Shown here piece by piece: positions 43,353 through 49,498 of a stretch of DNA of 64,000 nucleotides. Positions within the stretch are counted from its first letter, which is position 1, and the number at the start of each line of letters is the position of its first letter. A program made the position numbers and the translations under genes. The notes beneath the pieces are model-generated. The model saw only the letters and a list, made by a program, of their open reading frames with translations, was not told the DNA's origin and ran no database searches. Source of the stretch: Ignavibacteria bacterium (GTDB taxonomy: Bacteria > Bacteroidota > Ignavibacteria > Ignavibacteriales > SURF-24); NCBI GenBank assembly GCA_025612375.1, contig JAAXKN010000002.1, positions 186,001 through 250,000 on the forward strand. The letters run 5' to 3'.

Positions 43353-44366
43353 ATGAAAATTAAAAAACTTGGTCGTACTGGACTTAAGGTAAGCGAAGTA
43401 TGCCTGGGAACGATGACCTTCGGCTACCAGTGCGATGAGACAACGTCTTTTCAGATCTTAGACCGCGCCTATGAAGGAGGCGTAAACTTTATCGATACGG
43501 CAGACGTCTATCCCCTGCCTCCTCAGCTTTCAACTGTAGGAAGAACTGAAGAGATAATAGGAAACTGGCTAAAGGCCAACCCAGGAAGGCGCCACGAGAC
43601 AATCCTTGCAACCAAATGCAACGGAAAGATGGGTCCCGGTGTAAACGACCAGGGGCTTTCAAGGCGTCACATAATGGACGCAATTGATGCAAGCCTTAAA
43701 AGGCTTAAAACAGATTTTATTGATCTTTACCAGGTGCATTTCTTTGATGGCGAAACTCCCCTGGATGAAACCCTGAGGGCTTTGGACGACCTCGTAAGAT
43801 CAGGCAAGGTGCACTACATAGGGTGCAGCAACTACCAGGCTTACCAACTTGCAAAGGCCCTCTGGGTGAGCGACAAGCTTTCAATATCGCGCTACGATTC
43901 AATTCAGCCGAGGTATAATCTTCTTTTCAGGGAATTTGAAAATGAGCTTTTCCCTCTCTGCAAGTCGGAAGAGGTGGGAGTAATAGTTTATAATCCGCTG
44001 GCCGGAGGGTTTTTAACCGGCAAGCATGAGCGCGATAAGGAGCCCGAGGAGATGGGACGCTTTAAGCTGGGCGATTCGGGGAAACTCTACCAGGCACGCT
44101 ACTGGCAGGATGCACAGTTCGACCAGGTTGATTTAATGAAGGAATTCTTTAAGGACAGGAACAAGTCCCTTACACAGGTCTCCCTGGCCTGGGTATTGTC
44201 GCATTCTTATGTCACTTCGGCAATTGTCGGGGCCAGTAAGTCCAATCAGTTAGATGAAAGCTTGCCGGGGGTGGATTTAAGCCTGGATGAAGAAGAAATG
44301 ACATTCTTAAACGGACTGTGGTATAATCTGCCGCGTATGCAGGACCCGAGAGTTGCCCTAAGATAA
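43353..44366 (+). CDS. aldo/keto reductase
   Basis: A 337-residue TIM-barrel oxidoreductase. Catalytic Asp-Tyr-Lys-His are visible as FIDTADVYP, ETILATKC and IDLYQVHFFD; the motif ending VGASKSNQLDESL binds NADPH at the C-terminus. It follows the KCH-beta/L-glyceraldehyde-reductase-like pattern (KIKKLGRTGLKVSEVCLGTMTFGY). It reduces carbonyls or oxidises alcohols; substrate unknown. It stands alone and is ended by a terminator at 44418. Confidence 0.9.
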   Translation: MKIKKLGRTGLKVSEVCLGTMTFGYQCDETTSFQILDRAYEGGVNFIDTADVYPLPPQLSTVGRTEEIIGNWLKANPGRRHETILATKCNGKMGPGVNDQGLSRRHIMDAIDASLKRLKTDFIDLYQVHFFDGETPLDETLRALDDLVRSGKVHYIGCSNYQAYQLAKALWVSDKLSISRYDSIQPRYNLLFREFENELFPLCKSEEVGVIVYNPLAGGFLTGKHERDKEPEEMGRFKLGDSGKLYQARYWQDAQFDQVDLMKEFFKDRNKSLTQVSLAWVLSHSYVTSAIVGASKSNQLDESLPGVDLSLDEEEMTFLNGLWYNLPRMQDPRVALR

Positions 44367-44417
44367 TAGGACCGATTTTTGGCGTTTGGATTTATCATAA
44401 ATTTATGATATTTGCAG

Positions 44418-44440
44418 GGCTCTTACCGAGCCCTTTTTTA
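44418..44440 (+). terminator. terminator after aldo/keto reductase
   Basis: GGGCTC/GAGCCC stem with a five-base loop and six T. Confidence 0.8.
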
Positions 44441-44460
44441 ATTATAAGAATTCCGGACAG

Positions 44461-45537
44461 ATGACCAGATTAAATTTAAAGTATGTTTTAGGCTGTTTCC
44501 TTCTGATTATATTTCTTTCGCCGCTTAAAGCTCAGGCTCAGGAATGCAACTACTGCGGTAAAAAGATCACGGGCAGATATGTTGAAGCCGACGGGAAATA
44601 TTTCCATCCCCGGCACTTTATATGTGCCAGGTGCGGAAAAGTAATTACAGGCTCCTTTGCCGAAAAAGACGGCAGGTTCTTTCACCCCGACTGTTATGCC
44701 GTAAAAGAAGGCCTCGTTTGCGACTACTGCAGCAAAATAATTAGAGGGGAGTATGTTACCAGCGAGGGGAAAAAGTATCATCCTTCGTGCTATGAAAATT
44801 ATGTGCTTCCCAAATGCTCCGTATGCGGGAAGCCTCTTGACGGGGAATATACAATTGATCCTTACGGTAATAAGTACCATTCCTATCACAGCCATGAGCT
44901 CTCCAGATGCGATAACTGCAGCAGGATCATCTCCAATAAGACCACAGGCGGGGGAAGAGAATATTCCGACGGGAGGACTATATGCAATCTGTGCTATAAA
45001 GAGGCGGTATTCGATAACTCCCGGATAAACGCTCTTATGGGTAAGGTTATGCAGAGGCTTAAAAGCCTGGGGCTTAGCTTTAATGAAAGAACCATTTCCA
45101 TCAGGGGAGTGGACAGAAGGGAACTTAAAAAAGCTGCCGGAAGCAGGTACGACGGCAATATGAAGGGGATCTGCAATACCAGTTCAAGAACTGAGTACAT
45201 AAATCAGCGTGCATCAAAAAGCTTGAAGAGGCATGAAATTTTTGTTCTTAACGGTGTGCCTGCTCTGAATATTGAATCGGTAATTGCCCACGAGCTGATG
45301 CACGTTTGGCTTAATGATAATACAAAAGACGATCATCCGGATTTTCTCCGCGAGGGGAGCTGCAACTATATATCTTATCTTTACCTCAGGTCTGTAAGCG
45401 GCTCAAAGGCACGCGAGCTGATGAAGCAGCTTGAAGATGACGATGACGATACATACGGTAAAGGGTTCCTGAAAGTGAAGTCGGAATTTGGTGATAGGAG
45501 TCTGAATCAACTCCTGAGTTATTTGAAAAGGTATTAG
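44461..45537 (+). CDS. secreted LIM-domain zinc peptidase (DA1-like)
   Basis: A 358-residue protein with a signal peptide (about 1-26). Mature residues 28-190 contain two LIM-type double zinc fingers plus a further zinc ribbon (CNYCGKKITGRY ... HPRHFICARC; CDYCSKIIRGEY; CDNCSRIISNK ... CNLC). Residues about 195-358 are a DA1-like peptidase: HELMH (277-281) with downstream Glu in FLREGSCNYISYLY. Plant DA1 is a ubiquitin-activated peptidase with LIM followed by the same peptidase. This bacterial version is exported, so ubiquitin is not its partner; envelope protein processing is possible. The resemblance is by motif and domain order. Confidence 0.8.
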   Translation: MTRLNLKYVLGCFLLIIFLSPLKAQAQECNYCGKKITGRYVEADGKYFHPRHFICARCGKVITGSFAEKDGRFFHPDCYAVKEGLVCDYCSKIIRGEYVTSEGKKYHPSCYENYVLPKCSVCGKPLDGEYTIDPYGNKYHSYHSHELSRCDNCSRIISNKTTGGGREYSDGRTICNLCYKEAVFDNSRINALMGKVMQRLKSLGLSFNERTISIRGVDRRELKKAAGSRYDGNMKGICNTSSRTEYINQRASKSLKRHEIFVLNGVPALNIESVIAHELMHVWLNDNTKDDHPDFLREGSCNYISYLYLRSVSGSKARELMKQLEDDDDDTYGKGFLKVKSEFGDRSLNQLLSYLKRY

Positions 45538-45630: not shown

Positions 45631-45987
45631 ATGGTGAAAGGAAATAAACTTACATTCATTGTATTTGCAGTAATATTCCTTTTTATCTCACTTGGGATAG
45701 ATATGAGGAATGTTATTTCAAATGGCGAGATCTTCAGGATGAACGGGGACTTTCTGGACCAAATACATTTCTATCTTCAGATACCGGGAGCCATACCGGT
45801 GTTTCTGGTTGTCGGGCTATTCTTTAAGGACTCGCACGCCTATAATTTCTATTCCCTCTGGTCCCTTACACTCCTCTTGAACTGCCTTTTCTATGGTTTT
45901 GCAGGCTACTGGATATATCCGGCAGTTAAGAATTTATTTGGGCGTAGACAGAAAAACGCCGGTAAGAGTGGTGAAACACGTGCCTGA
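45631..45987 (+). CDS. small membrane protein (118 aa)
   Basis: A 118-residue protein with three predicted helices (about 8-25, 50-70 and 78-98) and a basic tail. Start ATG45631 follows GAGGGAAAGAAA. No motif is recognised. It lies between the LIM peptidase and a large T9SS cargo protein without overlap. Confidence 0.65.
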   Translation: MVKGNKLTFIVFAVIFLFISLGIDMRNVISNGEIFRMNGDFLDQIHFYLQIPGAIPVFLVVGLFFKDSHAYNFYSLWSLTLLLNCLFYGFAGYWIYPAVKNLFGRRQKNAGKSGETRA

Positions 45988-46372
<385 letters not shown>

Positions 46373-49300
46373 ATGCCAATGGTAATTAGAAAAAAACAGT
46401 TCCTTTCGGCTTTTCTGCTCTTCTTTATTGCTCTCACTGTTCTGGCTTATGCAGGTGATAAACAAGGCAAAAATCATGTAAGCACAAACAATGCTTCACT
46501 GACCTTTACAAAGCTAAACCTAAACAACCTTTCCACATTTATTTATAATAATGGTTATTCAGATTTTAACCTTTCCGGGAAATCGGGTTTGGCGTTTCCA
46601 CGGGGAGGCGAGAAGACAGTTGCATACCAGTCGGGGTTCGTCTGGGGCGGAAAAGTTAATGAAAACATACGTGTAGGCGGTTCCACCTATGGGTCGGGTC
46701 TCCAGCCGGGAAGGATAATCTCAACCGGGGTGGCTGAAGATACAAACGCCGCAAAGAGTAAATTATTCAGGGTCAGGCCGGATTATAAAACAGCCGACCT
46801 GACAATTGAGGCAGCCGAGGAAGAAAAGACTCAAAGTGAGGTCAGGGCAAAATATGAAAAAGACTGGATGGAATGGCCGGCATCTGAGGGGGCTCCATAC
46901 TGGGACCAGGATGGCGACGGGAAATATGACCCTGCTAAGGATATACCGGGAGTCAAAGATGCCGTTCAAACCATATGGTTTGTAGCAAATGACCTGGACA
47001 CGGCTAAAACCTGCGCACTTTACGGATCACTTCCAATGGGAGTGGAACTTCAAACTACAGTCTGGGCATACGACAAGGACTGGATCCTGAATAATACGTA
47101 CTTTAAGAAGTTTAAGATTATCAATAAAAGTAACAACGAATTTAAGGACTTTTATCTTTCTTTCTGGATAGATCCTGATATTGGTGATGCAAATGATGAC
47201 CTTGCCGGATGCGACACCCTGCAAAACATGGGGTATGTTTACAACGGCAACGTAATGGATCATGTGTATGGAAATTTCCCTCCGGCAGTGGGGTTCAAAC
47301 TCCTTCAGGGGCCCCGGGTTAACGCTACACTTTCAGATACTGCATCCTATGACGGCAGGAAAGTTCCCGGTAAGAAAAACCTTCCTATGACAGCTTTTTA
47401 CTATTTCATCAACGGCAGCGATACATATGCTGATCCTAAGCTCGGCCAATATTATGAACTAGGAACTATGTCTTTCTACAGGTTAATGCGGGGGAAAATG
47501 AGTACAAAGGACGAAGAATTCCCGATACCTTCAAACTTGGGCGGAGGCCTGACAAAGTTCCCTCTTTCAGGCGATCCTGTTGCGGGTTCGGGCTACCTGG
47601 ATGGCAGACTTTTCGATCCTGGTGACCGCAGGACCGGCCTGTCTTCGGGCCCTTTCAATATGGCTCCCGGTGACACGCAGGAAGTTGTAATTTCAGAGAT
47701 GGCTGCACAGAGCAGCAGTAATATTAATTCCGTTAAATTGCTGAAATTTTTCTCGGCAGAAGTTCAGAAGAAGTACAATAATTACTTCAAATTCCAGGAA
47801 ATCCCGGCGCCCGAGGCTCCTAAAGTAACAGGTACATACTCCAATAACTCTTTAACAGTTAAAATCCCTGAAAACACCCAAATAGAAAACTTTGATAAAG
47901 AGGGTTATCAATTCCAGGGCTACAACCTCTATCAGCTACCTTCAGGTGTGCCCGAAAAAAAGGGAGCAGTATACCTCGGCACTTACGACAAAATTGACGG
48001 AGTTAAATCCATTACAGGCCTTGGGCCTGATACTCTTACAGGAAATGAGATCAGTCTCATTCAGCAGAGAGGAACCGATTCGGGAATATTAAGAGAAATT
48101 ACTTTTTACAGGGACTCGCTTACTCATGCACCTTTACTTGCCGGGAAGAAATATTACTTCGGCATCTCGGCGTATACTTACAGAAATGACCCGGAAAATA
48201 AACTTACAAATATCGAAGGTCCGCTTGGGGTTTGTTCAGTCATTTATCAGGATAGTCTTATCGGTCCCAAATATAATGACGTTCTTAGCCTTGATAAAGT
48301 TTCAGGCCATGGGGAAGGAACAATTACTCCTATAGTAATTGATGCTTCAAAATTAACAGGGCATGAATATCAGATCGGTTTTAACGGCGAATCAGGAAGT
48401 GCGGTAATGTATCTGAAAGATCTCACACGGAATGGATTAGTACAGGATGACCAGTCTGCAATGTACGGTAACATTTATTCTCCTGTTTATGATGGGATTT
48501 ATTTTAAGATAAATGACGTTAAGCCCGGAATGAAGGAATGGCAGATTCCTCAGGGCACTCTCAAGTGGTCATGGTCAGGAGCATCTCTTTCTCTGGAAGG
48601 ATTCAGCGGTTCAATCGGCTATGCTGGCGGCTGGCTTACTTCATCTGCAGGGCCTGAGAAACTGCATGATGTTTTAATTAAATTTGCCGCAACTGACAGC
48701 AGTGGAAATGTACTTGACCCGAGTGACCCTGACGTCTCTTATGCTTACCGCTACTTAAGAGGTGCTTCAAACTATCCGCAGATGCCTGAGTTTATTCCTT
48801 ATATGATTAATAAAACTTCTGGTTATCCATATCAGGATTTCAAGAAGAACTTCCCGTTTGCAGCCTATGATGTGGAAGATCCTGCACATCCAAGGCAGCT
48901 TGCAGTGGGCTATCTTGAAAATAACACCCCGAAAGGGGCTGTTGACGGCAAATACTGGCCTCCGCAAAAGGGGCTGGATAATGTAGGGGCAGGGAGTCCA
49001 AGAGAATGGTTTTTTATATTTGATGTGAATTACAGAGAGACAGCTGATGCTTCTTTGCAGGGTGATCTGTTAAATGGAGAGCTGCCGGTGCTCTGGATGG
49101 GTACTCCTACAGTAAACAGCAAATTAGAGTCAAACGACCAGTTCCTGATCATTAGAAGTCATCCGTTTACTTCTGAAGATGTATTCAGGTTTACGGTAGG
49201 AAAACTTTCCAGAGTTGAATCTGGGAATATTCCATCAACATACGAAATGTCTCAGAACTACCCGAACCCGTTTAATCCTGTAACAACAATAAGCTACAGT

Positions 49301-49498
49301 TTGCCTGAGGTCTCAAAGGTGGAACTGAAAGTCTATGACATACTGGGCCGCGAGGTAATGACGCTTGTTAACAAAGAGCAGAATGCGGGCAGGTACAACG
49401 TTCAGTTTAATGCCGGAAGACTCAGCTCCGGAATTTACATCTACAGAATCTTGGCAAAGAACTTCACAAGGACCAATAAAATGGTTCTGCTGAAGTAA
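46373..49498 (+). CDS. large secreted T9SS cargo protein
   Basis: A 1041-residue protein with an N-terminal signal peptide (about 1-27) and a C-terminal T9SS sorting domain (QNYPNPFNPVTTISYSL ... SSGIYIYRILAKNF). A calcium-loop-like DQDGDGKYDPAKD motif is near residue 183 and there is a possible fibronectin-like region in the middle (about 490-620). No catalytic motif is recognised, so a structural or adhesive surface role is likely. ATG46379 is a possible alternative start. The (AT)15 tract lies upstream. Confidence 0.75.
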   Translation: MPMVIRKKQFLSAFLLFFIALTVLAYAGDKQGKNHVSTNNASLTFTKLNLNNLSTFIYNNGYSDFNLSGKSGLAFPRGGEKTVAYQSGFVWGGKVNENIRVGGSTYGSGLQPGRIISTGVAEDTNAAKSKLFRVRPDYKTADLTIEAAEEEKTQSEVRAKYEKDWMEWPASEGAPYWDQDGDGKYDPAKDIPGVKDAVQTIWFVANDLDTAKTCALYGSLPMGVELQTTVWAYDKDWILNNTYFKKFKIINKSNNEFKDFYLSFWIDPDIGDANDDLAGCDTLQNMGYVYNGNVMDHVYGNFPPAVGFKLLQGPRVNATLSDTASYDGRKVPGKKNLPMTAFYYFINGSDTYADPKLGQYYELGTMSFYRLMRGKMSTKDEEFPIPSNLGGGLTKFPLSGDPVAGSGYLDGRLFDPGDRRTGLSSGPFNMAPGDTQEVVISEMAAQSSSNINSVKLLKFFSAEVQKKYNNYFKFQEIPAPEAPKVTGTYSNNSLTVKIPENTQIENFDKEGYQFQGYNLYQLPSGVPEKKGAVYLGTYDKIDGVKSITGLGPDTLTGNEISLIQQRGTDSGILREITFYRDSLTHAPLLAGKKYYFGISAYTYRNDPENKLTNIEGPLGVCSVIYQDSLIGPKYNDVLSLDKVSGHGEGTITPIVIDASKLTGHEYQIGFNGESGSAVMYLKDLTRNGLVQDDQSAMYGNIYSPVYDGIYFKINDVKPGMKEWQIPQGTLKWSWSGASLSLEGFSGSIGYAGGWLTSSAGPEKLHDVLIKFAATDSSGNVLDPSDPDVSYAYRYLRGASNYPQMPEFIPYMINKTSGYPYQDFKKNFPFAAYDVEDPAHPRQLAVGYLENNTPKGAVDGKYWPPQKGLDNVGAGSPREWFFIFDVNYRETADASLQGDLLNGELPVLWMGTPTVNSKLESNDQFLIIRSHPFTSEDVFRFTVGKLSRVESGNIPSTYEMSQNYPNPFNPVTTISYSLPEVSKVELKVYDILGREVMTLVNKEQNAGRYNVQFNAGRLSSGIYIYRILAKNFTRTNKMVLLK

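Follow-up and report, generated by a model that had tools for sequence, protein, structure and literature searches.

A probably exported bacterial peptidase with LIM and LIM-like zinc modules in the domain order of plant DA1

The window, a 64,000-nucleotide stretch of Ignavibacteria DNA, contains a gene for a DA1-like zinc peptidase that is preceded by LIM and LIM-like zinc modules and, judging from its N-terminal sequence, is probably exported across the inner membrane. The reading we prefer, with a probability of roughly 60%, is that its product is an envelope endopeptidase that uses LIM fingers as docking arms, requires its LIM-like module for activity and is not activated by ubiquitin. The properties computed for it are the domain order, the predicted fold, the conserved catalytic and zinc residues, purifying selection and the lack of conserved gene partners. 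Both the domain architecture and its conservation are far beyond chance.

The open reading frame of the DA1-like peptidase occupies exactly positions 44461-45537 on the plus strand, from ATG to TAG, and specifies 358 amino acids; its delineation as the gene of an apparently exported LIM/LIM-like/DA1-like peptidase draws on the reading frame, Pfam matches and selection on the coding sequence. In the 5.2-Mb source genome, the window protein is the sole DA1-like and the sole LIM protein found. The nearest named relative at the locus comes from a sister genome, the Ignavibacteria MAG bin-C14, with a protein identity of 81%, and a dN/dS of about 0.11 against this sister (Nei-Gojobori with Jukes-Cantor; dS about 1) points to purifying selection. 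The DNA match between the window and the sister locus spans 44375-45537, and a terminator-like hairpin (44416..44434, plus strand) lies between an upstream aldo/keto reductase-like gene and the peptidase gene. The sister genome has kept the peptidase gene, while the genes directly on either side differ. Both the aldo/keto reductase-like gene (43353-44366) and the gene for a 118-aa membrane-like protein (45631-45987) are absent at the sister locus, indicating that rearrangement affected the neighbourhood but spared the peptidase gene. At 46373-49498 the window also encodes a large protein that looks exported and, by eye, has a sorting-type tail at its C-terminus; the sister locus carries two tandem relatives of it (66% and 48% identical).

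When the flanking genes of 81 loci were clustered, no family recurred beside the gene except in small clades, the largest recurrent ones being ABC ATPases, found at 8 scattered loci, and an upstream MATE-like gene at 6 Ignavibacteria loci. Since, in addition, the direct neighbours differ in the sister genome, an operon partner was rejected, and the peptidase gene looks like a single-gene unit. The MATE-like transporter gene, assigned by eye, lies 79-156 bp upstream on the opposite strand (L061, L062, L063, L064, L065 and L110), and a class A penicillin-binding-protein-like gene, likewise assigned by eye, is found 64-193 bp upstream on the same strand in one clade (L082, L083 and L101).

The window protein matches the Pfam families LIM (E 8.1e-19, 68.1 bits, cut-off 22.9; best stretch, residues 29-80) and DA1-like, PF12315 (E 2.9e-12, 46.9 bits, gathering cut-off 25). 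Among 67 aligned proteins, LIM was recovered at E 0.001 in 60 and DA1-like in all 67. Taken together with an alignment to DA1, these matches bear out the first-pass annotation, which had proposed LIM-type fingers and a HELMH peptidase in the order seen in DA1; the alignment also covers the LIM-like module. A scan of the protein against NCBIfam returned nothing over the cut-off, and no UIM was present among the 22 Pfam families listed for it; its signal-like N-terminus leads directly into the zinc ligands.

After the N-terminal 27 residues, 14 cysteines and 6 histidines fit five four-ligand zinc sites, predicted at residues 29/32/49/52, 55/58/75/78, 87/90/107/110, 119/122/140/143 and 150/153/175/178; the positions themselves come from the alignment, whereas their grouping into sites is interpretive. 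The first two sites (C29 C32 H49 H52 and C55 C58 H75 C78) make up a canonical LIM domain at residues 29-80 (44545..44700, plus strand), as indicated by the Pfam LIM match and a match to the LIM domains of PINCH. It is followed by a single-zinc half-LIM (C87 C90 H107 C110; 44719..44790, plus strand), which in the alignment falls opposite the second half of the LIM domain of DA1 and at which the second Pfam LIM match in the genome starts. The last element, delimited by conservation and the fold of the segment, is a LIM-like double zinc module (C119 C122 H140 H143 and C150 C153 C175 C178; 44815..44994, plus strand), whose two sites are separated by six residues instead of two. Its cysteines C119, C122, C150, C153, C175 and C178 are kept in 68 of 68 rows, and in each of these rows the module lies ahead of the peptidase. 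Instead of a series of plain LIM repeats, the zinc part combines a canonical LIM with a single-zinc half-LIM and a LIM-like pair. The 20 proteins of the window's order, including the window's own, all have the LIM-like pair and the peptidase but differ in how many N-terminal modules they carry, and the number of CxxC/H pairs ranges from 3 to 9 across the 66 loci of alignment A2, suggesting that the outer modules are not all needed. Two 367-aa proteins from the Zixibacteria phylum (L183 and L188) have 12 and 13 CxxC/H pairs, roughly double what is usual.

An AlphaFold2 model based on the 67-row alignment reached a mean pLDDT of 95.4 and a pTM of 0.83. Foldseek returned 27 PDB matches at E 0.001 or better, every one a LIM protein, with PINCH LIM4-5 as the best (E 4.7e-8), and VIA-align superposes residues 25-115 of the model on the same structure (Z 11.1, 3.1 Å, 91 residues). 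As far as these comparisons reach, the model gives no sign that the zinc geometry of a LIM domain, on whose presence the first-pass annotation had hinged, is absent. Modelled alone, the LIM-like segment 119-178 had a pLDDT of 91.1 and no PDB match at E 0.001 or better; given that its nearest neighbours were GATA and LIM fingers and that a profile comparison reached PINCH at E 2.4e-4, the segment is predicted to be a pair of zinc-finger halves that is LIM-like rather than LIM. DA1 chains were not among the PDB sequence matches of the window protein. Viral relatives were sought, and IMG/VR contained none for either the window protein or alignment A1; structure matches in BFVD at E 0.001 or better comprised three giant-virus proteins, two of them annotated as RING or E3-ligase, and a search for plasmid relatives gave no match.

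The peptidase domain (residues 184-358; 45010..45534, plus strand) has the gluzincin fold of clan MA, superposing on E. coli aminopeptidase N (2dq6) with a Z of 11.1 (2.8 Å, 144 residues, model 184-358), and it shares the conserved residues of DA1; to this extent, the C-terminal part of the protein agrees with the DA1-like peptidase originally suggested. The VIA-align rows of ACE and ACE2 begin at residue 118, and we read them as fold matches to the peptidase alone. The HELMH zinc-binding and catalytic motif (residues 277-281; 45289..45303, plus strand) contributes H277, E278 and H281; E298 (45352..45354, plus strand), in the spacing HELMH-x16-E, is the likely third protein ligand of the catalytic zinc; and Y332 of the YGxGF motif (45454..45456, plus strand) may be a transition-state tyrosine, a possible role taken from the YxKG motif of M1 peptidases. 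These five residues are invariant in 67 of the 67 proteins of alignment A2 (66 proteins from named contigs plus the window protein), whose 14 invariant columns include C119, C122, C150, C175, C178, H277, E278, H281, E298 and Y332. A cysteine switch or disulfide between C238 and C301 was discarded as a family-wide mechanism, since position 238 is a cysteine in just 18 of 68 rows.

Similarity to DA1 extends across the LIM, LIM-like and peptidase regions. BLASTP against an approximate, spot-checked Arabidopsis DA1 sequence gave E 5e-23 with 25% identity over 392 columns; residue comparisons depend on this approximate sequence, while the Pfam DA1-like result is independent of it. In this alignment, C153, H277, H281, E298 and Y332 presumably correspond to DA1 C274, H418, H422, E439 and Y501, with HELMH placed opposite H418-H422. 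Likewise, we take the LIM-like cysteines to match DA1 C232-C297, the four zinc sites of DA1 to match sites 1, 3, 4 and 5 of the window protein, and R358, the residue of the da1-1 allele, to match K235. C274 and R358 of the sequence used agree with the study by Dong et al. (2017; PMC5322733).

Residues 1-27 (44461..44541, plus strand) resemble a signal peptide by eye, by hydropathy and by a helix at residues 6-19 of the model, in which pLDDT ranges from 68 to 84 across residues 1-30. A positive start and a hydrophobic core lead to an AQA-Q end, near which cleavage would occur, with 27 residues ahead of the first zinc cysteines. A hydropathy rule detected an N-terminal hydrophobic segment in 66 of 74 complete homologues, and in the comparison set 144 of 571 flanking open reading frames of at least 200 aa had a hydrophobic segment at the N-terminus only; the export counts exclude L077, L107, L109, L111, L117 and L118, 6 of the 80 loci, whose sequences are cut or frameshifted. 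The segment is clearly absent from L071, L081, L098, L105, L106, L112 and L115, and L055 narrowly misses. These data agree with the export-type signal proposed in the first-pass annotation. Among loci of the Zixibacteria phylum, the segment occurs in 26 of 27 complete rows, and in a sample of the Cyanobacteriota phylum, in which several genomes are multi-copy, it is present in 8 and absent in 14 of 22 complete rows (for both phyla, three loci lacked a motif-bearing reading frame, two were cut and already-seen copies were skipped). Both exported and signal-less forms therefore exist in bacteria, the latter in several phyla. Thiol-rich zinc fingers are unusual outside the cytosol and might fail to form in an oxidising periplasm; a search of the source genome found no VKOR and one weak Thioredoxin_4 match, which is not decisive for periplasmic oxidation.

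The N-terminal segment could be a membrane anchor instead of a cleaved signal, in which case an uncleaved helix would hold the enzyme at the outer face of the inner membrane for the processing of membrane proteins. Such an arrangement would fit the presence of one N-terminal hydrophobic segment, with a later second segment in just 2 of 74 complete rows, as well as the short link from the segment to the first zinc cysteine, and it would be in line with the 2011 abstract of Burroughs et al., which reportedly presents prokaryotic LIM domains as partners of membrane-associated peptidases. However, the AQA-Q end looks by eye like a typical signal peptidase I site, and several related rows have similar AQ or SQ ends, leading us to regard a permanent anchor as rather unlikely.

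Homologues occur in 20 of 59 relatives, including the window's own genome. Of 22 genomes initially counted among these 59, two (G007 and G013) were dropped, as they match only through M1 peptidases (L191, assigned by Pfam, and L192, 53% identical to L191). PF12315 was detected in 18 of 395 genomes of the phylum sample, all within the window's order. The Zixibacteria phylum gave hits in 40 of its 132 genomes, the Cyanobacteriota-phylum sample in 14 of 339 and the Nitrospirota sample in 2 of 245, one of the latter with internal stops and below the cut-off. A contig search with one peptide pattern found 90 relatives, of which 80 were kept.

A 68-row tree, built after fragments and the most distant sequences (14 of 81 rows) had been omitted and a plant row added, covers 15 phylum labels as given in the records, with the caveat that single MAG rows may be misbinned. 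For a second tree of 69 rows, 16 of the 68 rows were omitted and 19 Cyanobacteriota-phylum rows were added, two of which were dropped. Both trees are unrooted and contain one plant sequence, which is approximate. The window protein falls firmly inside an Ignavibacteria clade (support 100/95 and 100/97 in the first and second tree, respectively), whereas the plant row, on a long branch, adjoins L102 in the first and L113 in the second tree with a support of 87/19 in both. Holding the plant row together with the Ignavibacteria was not rejected by the AU test in either case (p-AU 0.16 and 0.238). The phylogeny called for in the first-pass annotation places the window protein clearly and the plant row weakly. 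On the 69-row tree, which has 47 rows with and 22 without the segment, the export state changes at least 6 times, compared with a mean of 18.8 and a minimum of 14 changes in 200 shuffles; in the analysis of the first tree, L118 was left unscored for export. Several Cyanobacteriota-phylum genomes hold two or three LIM-DA1 genes (L139-L157), some of them encoding proteins of about 450-500 aa without an export signal, and eight Cyanobacteriota-phylum rows form one clade in the second tree (99/98).

These results bear on the idea that plant DA1 descends from an exported bacterial form acquired by plants, with loss of the signal and gain of UIMs. In its favour, exported rows are the majority of the named set (66 of 74), and the rows that the plant sequence adjoins, L102 or L113, are exported. 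Yet the placement is weak (87/19) and involves a long branch, unrooted trees and a single, approximate plant sequence; signal-less Nitrospirota rows (L071 and L098) belong to the same group as the plant row, and the segment is absent from 14 of 22 complete Cyanobacteriota-phylum rows. We consider such a descent improbable, and the signal-less Cyanobacteriota-phylum DA1 radiation may be a more suitable comparison for plants. The window's own clade is without special claim to an ancestral position, and the suggestion that the protein represents the ancestral form of the family is unproven and was not upheld, given the weak plant placement, the unrooted trees and the at least 6 export-state changes.

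Another possibility, which we rate as doubtful, is that the protein is a latent or inactive protease acting as a zinc or redox sensor, in which the cysteine-rich fingers respond and the peptidase is a scaffold or is released by the signal. A small exported protein with five structural zinc sites and 14 cysteines would suit such a role, and DA1 itself is described in PMC5322733 as latent until ubiquitylated. However, a protein serving only as a scaffold would have no need of the catalytic residues, all of which are unchanged in 67 of 67 rows, and several rows lack the outer zinc modules. Finally, the notion that the protein is a relative of M1-type aminopeptidases to which LIM fingers were added independently, rather than of DA1, is highly improbable, because the gluzincin fold shared with aminopeptidase N, a weak Pfam M1 match (E 0.0021) and an hhalign probability of 90.5 over 52 columns against five Ignavibacteria M1 proteins, in which the HExxH-E core was aligned and Y332 was not, are outweighed by a DA1-like E-value better by almost nine orders of magnitude, by the spacing H-x16-E instead of the H-x18-E of M1 and by a LIM-like module with the ligands of DA1 ahead of the peptidase in all 68 rows.

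For the preferred reading of an envelope endopeptidase, we infer export, peptidase activity, substrate docking, the compartment and the mode of activation from the features described above. The stand-alone zinc endopeptidase would cross the inner membrane, after which its LIM and half-LIM fingers may, by analogy, dock a protein partner or substrate. The LIM-like module would pack against the peptidase and be needed for its activity, and the gluzincin domain would cut the docked envelope protein at one or few sites. Activation would proceed without ubiquitin, the likeliest switches being export, zinc loading and partner binding. Cytosolic ubiquitylation, as in DA1, cannot activate a protein that is exported, and the claim that the window protein must be activated differently from DA1 stands insofar as the export-type signal and the lack of a UIM in the Pfam scan make ubiquitin-driven activation very unlikely. 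Searches of the source genome for ubiquitin and E2 with PF00240 and PF00179 gave no match, and the controls were silent too, making them uninformative. Weighing against the envelope-endopeptidase reading, alongside the doubts about thiol fingers outside the cytosol, the possible membrane anchor and the variable number of CxxC/H pairs, the accessible literature describes no activity for any bacterial DA1-like member.

In plants, the size of seeds and organs is under the control of DA1, which is also a target in crops. Bacterial versions that are small, free of ubiquitin and confidently modelled would make it possible to test directly how the LIM and LIM-like parts govern the DA1 peptidase, with C153 as the equivalent of DA1 C274. 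Should the fingers work outside the cytosol, LIM domains, usually seen as eukaryotic intracellular adaptors, would have a wider role. It is tempting to speculate, if only tentatively, that exported LIM-DA1 peptidases are widespread envelope proteases in a dozen or more phyla, with thiol zinc fingers, variable in number, as interchangeable docking arms outside the cytosol, and that plant DA1 branched off late from this bacterial diversity, leaving the envelope, shedding modules and becoming subject to regulation by ubiquitin.

Among known systems, the plant DA1/DAR proteins (PF12315 plus LIM) share with the window protein the succession of LIM, LIM-like module with C/H pairs in like positions and HExxH-x16-E peptidase with YGxGF. 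They differ in having N-terminal UIMs where the window protein has an export-type signal, in lacking a counterpart, in the approximate sequence used, of its extra site 2 (C55 C58 H75 C78), in carrying R358 where it has K235, and in overall sequence (25% identity). The study by Dong et al. (2017; PMC5322733), from which the term "LIM-like" for the DA1 module is taken, reports that the C274Y exchange abolishes both the ubiquitylation of DA1 and its peptidase activity towards BB, that the HEMMH motif is required for cleavage and that DA1 is latent until ubiquitylated. Citing Burroughs et al. (2011), the same source mentions bacterial DA1 homologues, namely Roseiflexus proteins with four CxxC/H pairs and a region reported as highly similar to DA1. 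A further article concerns DA1 and WUSCHEL (PMC11143343). Our search, which was thin on subscription literature, found no published work devoted to bacterial or exported DA1/LIM peptidases. Aminopeptidase N and other M1 gluzincins have the same catalytic-domain fold and an HExxH motif with a downstream Glu, but they combine H-x18-E with an M1 N-terminal domain, whereas the window protein has H-x16-E with LIM and LIM-like modules in front. The LIM domains of PINCH and paxillin show the ligand pattern and fold of window residues 29-80; these proteins are, however, eukaryotic adaptors without a peptidase, unlike the probably exported window protein, in which a half-LIM and a LIM-like pair follow the LIM domain. 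Bacterial DA1 relatives are already known, and the window protein adds to this family; the analysis adds the lack of a conserved gene neighbour, one zinc module beyond DA1 and the exported look of 66 of 74 complete homologues. The window protein is an ordinary DA1-like member, and what is mildly surprising is how common the exported form with thiol zinc fingers is.
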